From Brevibacillus laterosporus DSM 25 (GTDB lineage Bacteria > Bacillota > Bacilli > Brevibacillales > Brevibacillaceae): DNA of 64,000 bases. The stretch lies in NCBI RefSeq assembly GCF_002706795.1, contig NZ_CP017705.1:496001-560000 (forward strand), in the 5' to 3' direction. Of the stretch, positions 51,030 to 55,292 are shown piece by piece (position 1 is the stretch's first letter; every line of letters starts with the position of its first letter). The notes under the pieces are model-generated. The model ran no database searches. It worked only from the letters and a program-made list of their open reading frames with translations, and was not told where the DNA came from. Made by a program: the position numbers and the translations under genes.

Positions 51030-51941
51030 GTGTTATCAAATTCAATTAAATTAAAAGAAAGAGTTGCTTCAAAACAAAATATCTTATTTTTATTACTTCT
51101 CCAGTTACGTCCTCAGCAATGGACAAAAAATTTGCTCGTGTTTGCTGCCCTCTTATTTTCTCTACATAAAGTAAGTATCCATCTGCTTGGCAAGTCGCTC
51201 ATTGCCTTTTTTCTATTTTGCATGGTTTCAGGGTGTGTCTATATCCTAAACGATTTTGCTGATATCAAAAACGATCGCAATCATCCTGAGAAACGCTTTC
51301 GTCCTATGGCTTCAGGCGCACTAAACCCATTTTTGGGACTAGCATTTGGGTGTGGGCTACTGATAGCTTCTTTGTTTTCTGCTTTTCACTTCGATTTATG
51401 GTTTGGTAGTGTTTTATTATTCTATTTTTTGATAAATGTTGCCTATTCTTTTAAATTAAAACATGTGGTTATTCTGGATGTTATGATTATTTCTGCTGGT
51501 TTTGTGTTAAGAGCAATCGGTGGAAGCTTGATGATTGGCACTCCTTTTACTCCGTGGTTTTTGCTGTGCACAATGTTACTTTCCCTATTCTTGGCGATTA
51601 GTAAACGTCGACATGAACTCTATTTGCTACAGGAAGAAAAAGGAAGTCATCGTAAAGTATTAGACAACTATTCTATAGAACTATTAAATCAATTAAATAC
51701 GATTGTAACTTCAGCAACTATTATCAGTTACTCCCTATTCACCTTCACTTCTGGACGAACCATTCAGCTTATGTGGACAATTCCATTTGTGATCTTTGGT
51801 ATTTTTCGCTATCTCTACTTGATTATGATGGGCAACAAAGGAGGAAGCCCTGAAAAAGTATTGTTAGAGGACAAACCGATTCTTGTCACTGTCCTGCTAT
51901 ATGTGGTTGCAGTAGCTAGTATTATCCTTATTTTTGAATAA
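51030..51941 (+). CDS. UbiA-type polyprenyl-phosphate phosphoribosyltransferase-like enzyme
   Basis: A 303-aa membrane prenyltransferase with about eight helices. The motif at residues 74-96 (NDFADIKNDRNHP, then RPMASG) closely follows the pattern of mycobacterial Rv3806c, decaprenyl-phosphate phosphoribose synthase. LRPQQWTKN at 26-34 and the second aspartate region YSFKLKHVVILD (139-150) also fit. Such enzymes move phosphoribose from PRPP to polyprenyl phosphate, rather than prenylate quinones. The start is a GTG with AGGGGAT 8 nt upstream. It is first of four genes whose products together suggest a lipid-linked pentose pathway. Confidence 0.85.
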   Translation: MLSNSIKLKERVASKQNILFLLLLQLRPQQWTKNLLVFAALLFSLHKVSIHLLGKSLIAFFLFCMVSGCVYILNDFADIKNDRNHPEKRFRPMASGALNPFLGLAFGCGLLIASLFSAFHFDLWFGSVLLFYFLINVAYSFKLKHVVILDVMIISAGFVLRAIGGSLMIGTPFTPWFLLCTMLLSLFLAISKRRHELYLLQEEKGSHRKVLDNYSIELLNQLNTIVTSATIISYSLFTFTSGRTIQLMWTIPFVIFGIFRYLYLIMMGNKGGSPEKVLLEDKPILVTVLLYVVAVASIILIFE

Positions 51942-51969
51942 ACAATATAGATAGGTTGTGTAAACATTT

Positions 51970-52326
51970 ATGCCATCGCAAGTTCTTATATTCATTTCAG
52001 TCATTCTTAGTGCATGCGGGCAGGTCGCTATGAAGATGGGAGCTTCTGCTCTCTCTGGAAAAAGCGATGTGTTTTGGATGAAAATATTGCAATATCTAAC
52101 CAATATTCCAATTATGGTCGGGCTTGCCCTTTATGGAATATCAGCGTTTGTCTGGATTGCAGCAATTGAAAAAGTACAGCTCTCCTACGCCTATCCTATG
52201 GCTGCTTTGGGCTATGTTCTCGTAGCCCTGCTTTCTGTATGGATTTTTCAAGAGCCTGTCTCAGGCGTTCGCTTGATTGGTTTAGCTATTATTGTTATTG
52301 GCGTCATTGTAATTTCACGTTCTTAG
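51970..52326 (+). CDS. Four-helix EamA/SMR-like carrier
   Basis: A 118-aa protein with four hydrophobic helices of the drug/metabolite (EmrE/ArnE-like) type: LSACGQVAMKMGA in helix 1, YGISAFVWIAAIEKV, SYAYPMAALGYVLVALLSVWIF and a final IGLAIIVIGVIVIS. It lies 28 bp after the UbiA-type gene. Members of this fold flip lipid-linked sugars (ArnE/ArnF) or export cations. In this operon a flippase for a polyprenyl-phosphate sugar is the natural inference. The ribosome-binding site is weak. Confidence 0.8.
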   Translation: MPSQVLIFISVILSACGQVAMKMGASALSGKSDVFWMKILQYLTNIPIMVGLALYGISAFVWIAAIEKVQLSYAYPMAALGYVLVALLSVWIFQEPVSGVRLIGLAIIVIGVIVISRS

Positions 52327-52348
52327 TATCTATTCGGAGGAATTGTTT

Positions 52349-52801
52349 ATGCTATACGTTTTGGCACCGTTTATCGGCTGGTTAGTATCCGGTACGATTA
52401 AATTTATGATCAACTATGTACAATTTGGGAAAGAAGCAAGAAAGAAAATCGGAAATGGTGGCTTTCCTAGTACACATACAACAGTTATGGTAACCACCAT
52501 CAGCTTAATTGGGCTTAATGAAGGCTTTTCCAACCCCATTTTCGGTCTAGGTATCGCTGTTACCTTTATCATTATTATTGATGCGACCGGACTGCGGAGA
52601 GCTGTCGGCAAGCATGCTACCGCTATTAATTTGTTGGTAAAAGACCATGCAACTGCTGAGGAAAAAGAAACCTTACGTGAAAGTATGGGACATACAAAAT
52701 GGGAAATCCTCGGAGGTATTGTTTTAGGAGTTTTAGTAGGACTGCTATTGCATCTTCTGTCACCAATAGTCTCAGGACTACTCAGCCTAGGAGGGAACTA
52801 G
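52349..52801 (+). CDS. Divergent PAP2 (DUF212, YuiD-like) membrane protein
   Basis: A 150-aa protein with about four helices. GNGGFPSTHTTVM (about 34-46) is the PSxH phosphatase motif of the divergent PAP2 family, and DATGLRRAVGKHA follows as the second conserved block. The ATG at 52349 was chosen because GGAGG lies 8 nt upstream. In mycobacteria a PAP2 protein (Rv3807c) lies beside the phosphoribose transferase and is assigned to removal of its 5-phosphate. This gene may play that part, which is inference. YuiD-type proteins alone are uncharacterised. Confidence 0.85.
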   Translation: MLYVLAPFIGWLVSGTIKFMINYVQFGKEARKKIGNGGFPSTHTTVMVTTISLIGLNEGFSNPIFGLGIAVTFIIIIDATGLRRAVGKHATAINLLVKDHATAEEKETLRESMGHTKWEILGGIVLGVLVGLLLHLLSPIVSGLLSLGGN

Positions 52802-52808
52802 AAAAGAT

Positions 52809-54491
52809 ATGAAGAGCCGAACACCTAACTTCTCTCTTGTAATAGGAATTGTCTTACTCCTGTTTTTATTAGGAATTGTACTTTCTACATCGATTTTATT
52901 TTTGCTTGGTGTATCCATCTCAACGACTAGCTTCTGGGTGGCTGTATGTGCAAGTATTGTCTGCCTCCTAGTTATGACACATACATTCTTTACATCTCGT
53001 AGGGCAACCATGTTTTTTTCTTTGCTAATGGGATTAGGACTGATTTTTGGAATAAGCTGGTATACTAGTACTGCTACATATGATCTATCTTGGGATGGTC
53101 AGACCTACCATCAAGAAGCGATTATTCTATTAAAAAATGGCTGGAATCCCGTTCATGACCAACCTTTACTAAACATAACCGATGCCCAAAAGCTTGATAA
53201 TTCAAGTGGAGAAGACATCCGTACTCCCTTTCATCTATGGATTAATCATTACACAAAAGGTCCATGGATGCTTGATACCGTCATGTACAAATTGACGGAT
53301 CAAATTGAAGGAAGTAAGATGTTTAACTTTATTCTTTTATTTGCTTCGTTTTTTCTTTGCTTGGCTGCAATTCTTGATACCTATCCTGAGAAAAAAAGGC
53401 GTGCGGTCTTCCTCTCACTACTTCTGGCCTGCAATCCAGTCGTGATAACACAGCTGGTCACCTTTTATATTGATGGACAATTAGCATCTCTTGTACTTAT
53501 CATCTGTTCCTTGGGGTATCTCTTATTTAAACGTTTTAATCCATGGATTTTAGTAGGGCTATGCTCGGCCATTATCCTGCTAACGGCTATTAAGTTCACC
53601 GCTCTTGTATACGCAGTTCTTTTATGTGGTGGATTGCTTGTTTTATTTTTCTTGTACGATAAACATAGACATTGGAAAAAGCTACTGCTTTCTCTTGTCG
53701 CAAGCGGCCTCGTAGCGGTAGCAATCGTTGGTTATAATCCCTACGTTACCAATTTCTTAGCAAAGGGACATCCATTTTATCCATTAGCCGGTGAACATGC
53801 TGTAGATATTATGACAGCTAATAGTCCAGCCGACTTTCAAGGGAAAAATCAGTTCGAAAAGTTCTTTGTATCTTTATTTGCCAAGTCAGAAAATATTATA
53901 AGACCTAATGAAAGCACAATGAAATGGCCGTTCACTGTAGCATTTGAGGAATTTCAAGCTTTTATTGGGGCTGATGCTCGTTTAGCGGGATTTGGTCCTC
54001 TGTTTGGAGGAGCTGTATTACTAGCCTGCCTTGTCTCATTTGCTCTCTTCCTTCGAAGTAGACAATTAGCAAAGCCTGTATTAATAGTAAGTGGAATCAT
54101 TCTTTTGACGGTATTTATAAATCCTGAATGTTGGTGGGCGCGATACGTTCCTCAATTGTGGTTCGTACCCATTCTCATTGCAATGGTAGGATTGGAAACT
54201 GATAAGCAATTTACGAAGTACGCAAGTTGGTTTTTGATTTGTACTCTTTCCATAAATCTGTTGCTAGTAGGGGCTACTCAAACGATTGCTCAAACATTCT
54301 TCAATGTCCAAGTAAATCTACAGCTTCACGAAATGAAGAAAAGTAAGCAGCCTGTATTAGTTGATTTCCAGCATTTTAATTCAAATCGAATCAGATTGGA
54401 AAAAGCGGGGATCGAATTTATTGAAACAAAGATTGATGATAAAAATGCTAAAAAGCTTGGTTCATCACAGGCAAAGTATTTAGTAAGATAA
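52809..54491 (+). CDS. GT-C-like multi-spanning membrane glycosyltransferase
   Basis: A 560-aa protein with about 11-13 hydrophobic helices and a short C-terminal soluble tail (about 510-560). The first large loop holds SWDGQTYHQEA (94-104), an acidic pattern like the catalytic loop of GT-C transferases that use polyprenyl-phosphate sugars. No closer family is recognised. It starts 7 bp after the DUF212 gene, with AGGAGGG somewhat further away than usual. It is the last gene of the operon before a strong terminator. A role in moving a pentose from its lipid carrier to a surface polymer is inferred from the neighbours. Confidence 0.65.
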   Translation: MKSRTPNFSLVIGIVLLLFLLGIVLSTSILFLLGVSISTTSFWVAVCASIVCLLVMTHTFFTSRRATMFFSLLMGLGLIFGISWYTSTATYDLSWDGQTYHQEAIILLKNGWNPVHDQPLLNITDAQKLDNSSGEDIRTPFHLWINHYTKGPWMLDTVMYKLTDQIEGSKMFNFILLFASFFLCLAAILDTYPEKKRRAVFLSLLLACNPVVITQLVTFYIDGQLASLVLIICSLGYLLFKRFNPWILVGLCSAIILLTAIKFTALVYAVLLCGGLLVLFFLYDKHRHWKKLLLSLVASGLVAVAIVGYNPYVTNFLAKGHPFYPLAGEHAVDIMTANSPADFQGKNQFEKFFVSLFAKSENIIRPNESTMKWPFTVAFEEFQAFIGADARLAGFGPLFGGAVLLACLVSFALFLRSRQLAKPVLIVSGIILLTVFINPECWWARYVPQLWFVPILIAMVGLETDKQFTKYASWFLICTLSINLLLVGATQTIAQTFFNVQVNLQLHEMKKSKQPVLVDFQHFNSNRIRLEKAGIEFIETKIDDKNAKKLGSSQAKYLVR

Positions 54492-54568: not shown

Positions 54569-54605
54569 AGCTGACCCCAACCTTCATTGGGCGTCAGCTT
54601 TTTCC
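54569..54605 (+). terminator. Terminator of the polyprenol-pentose operon
   Basis: AGCTGACCCCAA pairs with TTGGGCGTCAGCT (one bulge) and is followed by TTTT. It lies between this operon and the convergent pyrE. Confidence 0.85.
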
Positions 54606-54635: not shown

Positions 54636-55292
54636 CTATTCTGTTTTTAAAACCTGCTCCTTATAAAACGTGTGCGGCTTTTCCTTCCACTGAGACAAAA
54701 CTTTTTCTTGTCCAGCACTGATTGTTCCATTATCTTTTGCTTGCTCTAATAGTGCTGTATAGTTGGATAACGTGTGTAATGGATAGTTCGCTTCTGTAAA
54801 AGCACGTTCTGCATCGGCAAATTGGTAGCTAAAAATAGCGACTACTCCCAATACCTCAGCTCCCTCCAATTCAACAGCCTTTGCTGCCTTGATGGAGCTT
54901 CCACCTGTAGAAATTAAATCTTCAATAACGACTACCTTTTGACCAGCAGCAATATGCCCTTCAATCTGATTTTGACGACCGTGACCCTTTGCCTTATCAC
55001 GGACATAAATCATTGGCAACCCCATACGATCAGCAATCCATGCTGCATGAGGAATTCCTGCTGTCGCTGTACCAGCAATAACTTCTACTTCAGGAAAACG
55101 CTCACGAATTACCTGAACAAAAGCATCTGCTAAATAGCTACGAACCTCTGGGTACGTCATTGTAATACGGTTATCGCAATAAATGGGAGATATAATCCCG
55201 GATGTCCAGGTAAACGGTTCTTCTGGACGAAGATGTACAGCTCCAATTCGTAAGAGATGCTGTGCTACTTGTTTTGCAATTGTTGTACTCAT
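54636..55292 (-). CDS. pyrE: Orotate phosphoribosyltransferase
   Basis: Makes orotidine 5'-phosphate from orotate and PRPP, 218 aa. FTWTSGIISPIYCDNR is the N-terminal orotate-site region. The catalytic loop is DKAKGHGRQNQIEG and the PRPP motif is VVVIEDLISTGGSS. It starts at the base after the pyrF stop and is the last gene of the pyr operon. Confidence 0.96.
   Translation of the reverse strand: MSTTIAKQVAQHLLRIGAVHLRPEEPFTWTSGIISPIYCDNRITMTYPEVRSYLADAFVQVIRERFPEVEVIAGTATAGIPHAAWIADRMGLPMIYVRDKAKGHGRQNQIEGHIAAGQKVVVIEDLISTGGSSIKAAKAVELEGAEVLGVVAIFSYQFADAERAFTEANYPLHTLSNYTALLEQAKDNGTISAGQEKVLSQWKEKPHTFYKEQVLKTE

Follow-up and report, generated by a model that had tools for sequence, protein, structure and literature searches.

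Brevibacillus laterosporus DSM 25 carries, in a 5.4-Mb genome, a four-gene operon whose products probably build and use a lipid-linked pentose. We analyzed it within a stretch of 64,000 nucleotides (positions 496,001 to 560,000 of contig NZ_CP017705.1, assembly GCF_002706795.1, forward strand; here, the window), in whose numbering coordinates are given unless a locus is named. A sequence-only reading had described four genes as one operon with its own terminator, and this structure was confirmed: four + strand open reading frames (ORFs) occupy 51030-54491, with intergenic gaps of 28, 16, and 7 bp, and are followed by a hairpin. The features are as follows.

51030..51941, + strand: polyprenyl-phosphate 5-phosphoribosyltransferase (PPPRS) family protein of the UbiA superfamily; 303 aa, GTG start; matches NF008977, NF008978, and PDB 8j8j
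51970..52326, + strand: SMR/EamA-type carrier, proposed flippase of the lipid-linked pentose; 118 aa; PF00893 over its cut-off
52349..52801, + strand: DUF212 "divergent PAP2" protein, proposed polyprenyl-phosphoribose 5-phosphatase; ~150 aa; PF02681
52809..54491, + strand: GT-C-like membrane glycosyltransferase, proposed pentofuranosyltransferase acting extracellularly; 560 aa; AlphaFold2 model
54569..54599, + strand: Rho-independent terminator hairpin, then a T run; -22.8 kcal/mol, z -6.28

The UbiA-family protein, carrier, and GT-C-like protein

The first protein matched PF01040 with 74.4 bits (cut-off, 34.2). The phosphoribose-synthase variant of the Asp motif described in the sequence-only reading was found again when its positions were rechecked (N74-D75..D78..D82-R83..H85-P86..K88..R91-P92). 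Two curated decaprenyl-phosphate phosphoribosyltransferase models were passed, NF008977 with 263.2 bits (cut-off, 234) and NF008978 with 224.5 bits (cut-off, 207); a third model, NF008976, was not reached (184.3 of 474). Clustering with quinone or heme enzymes, set beforehand as the refuting outcome, did not occur in this profile comparison; on heme o synthase, the protein scored 32 bits. Mycobacterium tuberculosis Rv3806c (PDB 8j8j) was matched at E = 2.7e-44. Twelve Rv3806c residues that contact phosphoribosyl pyrophosphate (PRPP) or the lipid phosphate, taken from PMC10994848, were mapped by hand through the Rv3806c alignment, and 10 are identical here (R27, K33, Y71, N74, K88, R91, Y139, K144, K192, and K209).

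Conservation was examined in 96 aligned UbiA relatives, rows that include duplicates, some genomes being in both sets of related loci, L033-L048 and L050-L129 (e.g., L034/L050 and L044/L065). R27, K33, Y71, N74, D75, D78, D82, K88, R91, Y139, K144, and K192 are each kept in 95 or more rows, and Y71, N74, D75, D78, D82, R91, Y139, K144, and F158 are invariant. Weighing against the assignment are the two contact residues that differ, N136 for Rv3806c Q135 and F158 for Y157, and K209, which is K in just 79 of the 96 rows. N136 is N in 86 rows, and the position of Y157 is Phe in some mycobacteria according to the same paper. The protein belongs to the PPPRS family, and its sequence predicts a PRPP-dependent activity. 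It is 96% identical to the UbiA protein of a relative (G003) and 94% identical to that of B. laterosporus MSSRFCCT15. Separately, a human fecal record labeled "Bacteriophage sp." (MT837543.1, 6646 bases), an unverified fragment that lacks annotation, encodes a PPPRS relative with 37% identity over 84% of the query.

The small carrier, also recognized in the sequence-only reading, is of the SMR/EamA type: it scored 24.4 bits on PF00893 (cut-off, 23.7) and 27.7 bits on PF00892, slightly below the cut-off of 28.2. Its nearest named relatives, ArnF and ArnE, were both below cut-off (57.1 of 99 and 39.5 of 92, respectively), and a PDB sequence search gave nothing stronger than E = 0.73. The carriers of sister loci are two SMR-like genes or an LPG_synthase_TM protein (PF03706), and GtrA on a Lactococcus plasmid.

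The fourth protein matched no Pfam or NCBIfam family above cut-off. An AlphaFold2 model built from a 16-sequence alignment reached a mean predicted local distance difference test score (pLDDT) of 83.5 and a predicted template modeling score of 0.89, superseding an unusable single-sequence model (pLDDT, 45.7). VIA-align superposed it on ArnT with a Z score of 14.3 over 373 residues (root-mean-square deviation, 6.2; 13% identity over the structural alignment), followed by ALG12 (13.9), Pmt4 (13.2), AftD (12.7), AftA (11.8), PglB (11.4), and AftB (9.5). The leading Foldseek rows were AftA, ALG12, the oligosaccharyltransferase OST, and Emb proteins, with weak E-values. Several results weigh against a GT-C fold: in Foldseek against the PDB, no match fell below E = 0.001, the best being AftA at 1.7e-3; a PDB search with the sequence profile found no chain at E = 1; and VIA-align re-examines Foldseek candidates alone, with mostly helical models that lack a clear match typically reaching a best Z of 14. 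We nevertheless accept the fold because all 50 VIA-align entries listed are GT-C enzymes, complexes containing one, or three glycosylphosphatidylinositol-transamidase chains; these chains we take to be PIG-U, which is GT-C-like. The model thus supports the large GT-C-like membrane protein proposed in the sequence-only reading. D92, D96, Y100, H101, H147, and R445 are invariant in the 16 sequences. The ArnT match begins at model residue 65, two helices preceding the core, and the D92/D96 stretch directly follows the first core helix (65-89); in the model, these residues would sit where GT-C enzymes carry the catalytic acid.

We consider it probable that the operon forms a self-contained cassette for pentofuranosylation outside the cytoplasm. 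In this pathway, the UbiA protein would move 5-phosphoribose from PRPP onto polyprenyl phosphate, presumably undecaprenyl phosphate, and the DUF212 protein would strip the 5-phosphate to give polyprenyl-phosphate-ribofuranose. The SMR carrier would then flip the lipid-linked sugar, and the GT-C-like protein, given its predicted fold, could add the pentofuranose to a glycan or glycoprotein at the cell surface. The grouping is conserved: UbiA, DUF212, and window-type GT-C genes share one locus in 12 of 16 relatives (L033-L048), the GT-C gene coming first in one of these loci (L047), and the genes flanking the operon in the window are present in just 2 of the 16.

The DUF212 protein and the phosphatase slot

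The third product had been read from sequence as a PAP2-type protein with a PSTH motif. The motif held (residues 42-45), and the family was revised: the protein matched PF02681, DUF212 or "Divergent PAP2 family," with 98.9 bits (cut-off, 26.5), which was its sole Pfam match at E = 0.001, and matched no classical PAP2 model. A PDB sequence search gave nothing at E = 1. The ATG at 52349, 8 bases past GGAGG, fits as start better than the TTG at 52343 given by the ORF tool. The genome has two DUF212 copies, a housekeeping copy elsewhere (169 bits) and the second, diverged copy in the operon (99 bits). Across 59 genomes, this one among them, the type with low scores (97-104 bits) was found in 21 of the 23 UbiA-bearing genomes (all except G033 and G055), always at the UbiA locus, and in none of the 36 without UbiA.

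The operon type has a signature, GNGGFPS[TN]H, present in 44 of 44 rows (29 from L050-L129, 14 from L033-L048, and the window; duplicates included). At the same position, housekeeping rows read STGGMPSSH, each residue being shared by 27 or 28 of 31, with three or four rows gapped or misaligned there. A DNA pattern of the signature, run on 299 genomes from the class, gave 25 sites in 25 genomes, each with a PPPRS match no more than 3.5 kb away. PPPRS matches occurred in 54 of the 299 genomes, one of them partial (G076, 95.9 bits), the signature occurred in none of the other 245, and a reversed control pattern had no matches in the 299-genome table. This agreement is circular for the genomes whose DUF212 genes at PPPRS loci supplied the signature; 10 of the 25 lie outside the family of the window and L033-L048 (G067, G085, G097, G154, G167, G173, G183, G193, G203, and G213), and some of these may coincide with named genomes of L050-L129.

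The phosphatase gene was then tallied in the best 80 related loci of a longer list (L050-L129), a sample mostly of Paenibacillaceae with several short contigs; one locus near a contig end, in which no UbiA ORF was found (L103), was excluded. Within 5 kb on the same strand, and with profiles made from one to two seeds each, DUF212 was found at 29 of the 79 loci, a HAD protein at 27, both at none, and neither at 23. The DxDxT motif is present in all 27 HAD proteins, and the one scanned, that of L058, matched PF12710 with 137 bits. On the UbiA tree, the DUF212 and HAD labels need at least seven and at least four changes, of which five and two are forced by starred branches, the bootstrap being not settled. 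All four genes of the operon occur together at 14 of the 79 loci, including those of Pelosinus, Aneurinibacillus, and three Paenibacillus.

In Citrobacter, as described in PMC11127046, a HAD domain performs the dephosphorylation, which by analogy makes 5-phosphatase a plausible role for the HAD genes, with DUF212 their stand-in. From this exchange in sister operons and its tight linkage, we infer that DUF212 acts as the 5-phosphatase. We lean, by a modest degree, toward the view that the GNGGFPS[TN]H subfamily comprises dedicated polyprenyl-phosphoribose 5-phosphatases that swap with HAD enzymes, to which they are unrelated, in the ribo- and arabinofuranosylation operons of Gram-positive bacteria. 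The Brevibacillus envelope would then have a ribofuranose decoration made by such an enzyme.

Several observations count against this view. The 23 loci with neither gene mean that a local phosphatase gene is not obligatory or that the HAD profile, built from a single seed, overlooked some. The labels track the UbiA tree, and because all 27 HAD rows fall in one 35-row group, which also contains one DUF212 row (L078), replacement occurred a few times on this tree, not 27. Second DUF212 copies also occur in three genomes without UbiA (G036, G040, and G053), where they are of a different type that scores higher (122-143 bits). Compared with classical PAP2 motifs, all 44 operon rows keep PS[TN]H, and position 91, which we take to correspond to the motif-3 histidine, is H in 37 and Q or N in 7. 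The 23 loci with neither gene and the variation at position 91 would suit an alternative in which the DUF212 protein recycles undecaprenyl (pyro)phosphate or aids transport while a general phosphatase carries out the dephosphorylation; in addition, we met no account of DUF212 function, or of DUF212 within this pathway, in the open-licence PMC papers searched. That alternative seems unlikely, though worth keeping in mind: every signature site lies beside a PPPRS gene, DUF212 and HAD never co-occur among the 79 loci, and in the window operon DUF212 is the sole gene that has no other assigned step.

Position 91 also differs between the branches: 26 of the 31 housekeeping rows, the type noted at L030 / G000:C1:1430918-1431352, carry Q there, versus H in most operon rows; judging from the alignment, this may reflect different chemistry in the two DUF212 branches.

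The donor sugar and the genomic setting

The sequence-only reading had favored ribofuranose over arabinofuranose, and the whole-genome search agrees, as DprE1 was not found. The two genomic matches to the DprE1 homologue of a related locus (L045) are weak (40.5 bits at 25% identity and 23.2 bits at 27%), and the matched stretch of the single ALO protein scored 26.5 bits on the DprE1 model (whole-protein cut-off, 500) and 219 on bact_FAD_ox. Since DprE1 is missing from the matches, polyprenyl-phosphate-ribofuranose would be the likeliest donor. On these genomic grounds, the sugar is most likely ribofuranose, likely linked to undecaprenyl phosphate; the genome-wide search covered DprE1, and not DprE2 or other epimerases.

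The donor could instead be epimerised to polyprenyl-phosphate-arabinofuranose or -xylofuranose by enzymes encoded elsewhere in the genome. DprE1/DprE2 homologues do occur in related loci (L045, L046, L095, L096, L105, and L115), an extended short-chain dehydrogenase/reductase (SDR) epimerase (PF01370) adjoins UbiA-DUF212 in L127, showing that the module diversifies in this way, and PMC11127046 describes a single epimerase, ORF13, on which the choice of ribose or xylose form depends. Given the weak DprE1 scores above, and with neither DprE1 nor DprE2 inside the listed four-gene operons, we regard epimerisation as improbable here; an epimerase other than DprE1 elsewhere in the genome, of a kind for which no search was made, may weigh against a ribofuranose donor.

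The epimerase-bearing loci are of interest in themselves. L045:4424-11032 (G045), L095, L096, and L115, all from Bacillota, combine UbiA and DUF212 with homologues of DprE1 and DprE2 and with carrier genes; in L045, the DprE1 homologue scored 464.7 bits (cut-off, 500) and the DprE2 model gave 190.8 (cut-off, 250). By gene content, they look like a polyprenyl-phosphate-arabinofuranose pathway outside Actinobacteria, and the presence of DUF212 beside DprE1/DprE2 places DUF212 in a likely polyprenyl-phosphate-pentose pathway. In the family of the window, L046:8155-11187 (G033) has UbiA and then DprE1 and DprE2 homologues, with no DUF212 or HAD found. The G033 UbiA ORF (280 aa) is open: it lies behind a TAA, the codon with which the aligned stretch begins. 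In L127:7953-10241, the extended SDR gene follows UbiA-DUF212, recalling the epimerase-bearing arrangement of PMC11127046.

We rejected as scarcely credible the idea that this is an incidental grouping around an ordinary prenyltransferase of quinone or heme synthesis. The UbiA protein shares the superfamily PF01040 with such enzymes, but the phosphoribosyltransferase models outscore heme o synthase by far, and its PRPP-site residues are conserved. Among five further PF01040 matches in the genome, the best-scoring model is heme o synthase for two, a quinone-type prenyltransferase for two, and a distant prenyltransferase for one (below cut-offs).

The terminator hairpin with its U tail was missed by a simple terminator scanner; in the folded 58-nt stretch, none of 200 shuffles was equally stable. 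It may act for both strands, as a convergent ORF ending at 54636 adjoins it. Promoter-like sites were not enriched (11, against a mean of 13.6 in shuffled sequence). Upstream, the operon is flanked by an MFS transporter gene and a CcdC gene, both identified in the Pfam scan, and the convergent ORFs downstream are presumably pyrE, pyrF, and carB/carA. The ORF list and Pfam scan showed no recognizable glycan genes among the immediate neighbors. Four relatives that lack the operon keep the MFS-CcdC pair; no pyrE turned up in their examined stretches, and a clean empty site was not demonstrated there. In four of the related loci (L059, L070, L101, and L106), six of nine hand-picked neighbors scored over cut-offs as glycosyltransferases or sugar-nucleotide enzymes, which points to polysaccharide decoration at those loci. 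On the mobilizable dairy plasmid pF27D of Lactococcus cremoris (L171), PPPRS, HAD-IB phosphatase, and GtrA genes adjoin capsular-polysaccharide genes.

Significance and comparison with known systems

Lipid-linked pentofuranose chemistry is best known as an antimycobacterial drug target. The present findings would extend it, in the form of a compact module of four genes, to Brevibacillus, some Paenibacillus, and Sporomusaceae. If DUF212 is the 5-phosphatase, part of the DUF212 family gains a functional handle that can be tested. Related modules vary in their combination of phosphatase (DUF212 or HAD), carrier (SMR, SMR pair, GtrA, or LPG-synthase-like), and epimerase (none, DprE1/DprE2, or possibly an extended SDR), and they could therefore serve as guides to surface glycans and as parts for glycoengineering.

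The definition of the pathway type goes back to Kelly et al. 2024 (PMC11127046). That study reported further Gram-positive candidates, one in Bacillus, and counted systems with other phosphatase and carrier families. The words "Brevibacillus," "Firmicutes," "Bacillota," and "PAP2" do not occur in the main text of that paper, and in open-licence PMC papers we met none on this operon. The Citrobacter youngae O1/O2 three-component pentofuranose system described there consists of the PPPRS-PRP fusion ORF15, a MATE carrier, and the GT-C protein ORF12/GT136. Like it, the window operon places a UbiA-superfamily PPPRS, a dedicated carrier, and a GT-C transferase gene in one cluster, and no epimerase is needed for ribofuranose (O1). 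Unlike it, in which a HAD domain is fused to the PPPRS and the carrier is MATE, the operon has a separate DUF212 protein and an SMR/EamA-type carrier.

The operon also resembles the mycobacterial decaprenyl-phosphate-arabinose pathway (Rv3806c, Rv3807c, DprE1/DprE2, Rv3789, and AftA/Emb). PPPRS and phosphatase are separate genes in both, the carrier is of the SMR type, as Rv3789 is described in PMC11127046, AftA and AftD are among the fold matches, and 10 of the 12 Rv3806c contact residues checked are kept. The differences are that DUF212 occupies the phosphatase slot, that there is one GT-C gene, and that, with no DprE1 found, the product would not be arabinose by that route. Within Bacillota, the Paenibacillus UbiA-HAD-SMR-SMR-DUF6080 operons and the UbiA-HAD-GtrA locus of pF27D share the synthase family and gene logic; they differ in having a HAD phosphatase, a paired SMR or GtrA carrier, and another candidate transferase gene. 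ArnT and ArnE/ArnF, which act in the transfer of 4-amino-arabinose onto lipid A, are the best structural match of the fourth protein and the nearest relatives of the carrier, respectively, but the carrier fails the ArnE and ArnF cut-offs and identity to ArnT is 13%. The Arn pathway is not known to include a PPPRS. The pathway type is thus already known, and the Brevibacillus operon is a variant in its parts list, with SMR in place of MATE and DUF212 in the phosphatase slot.

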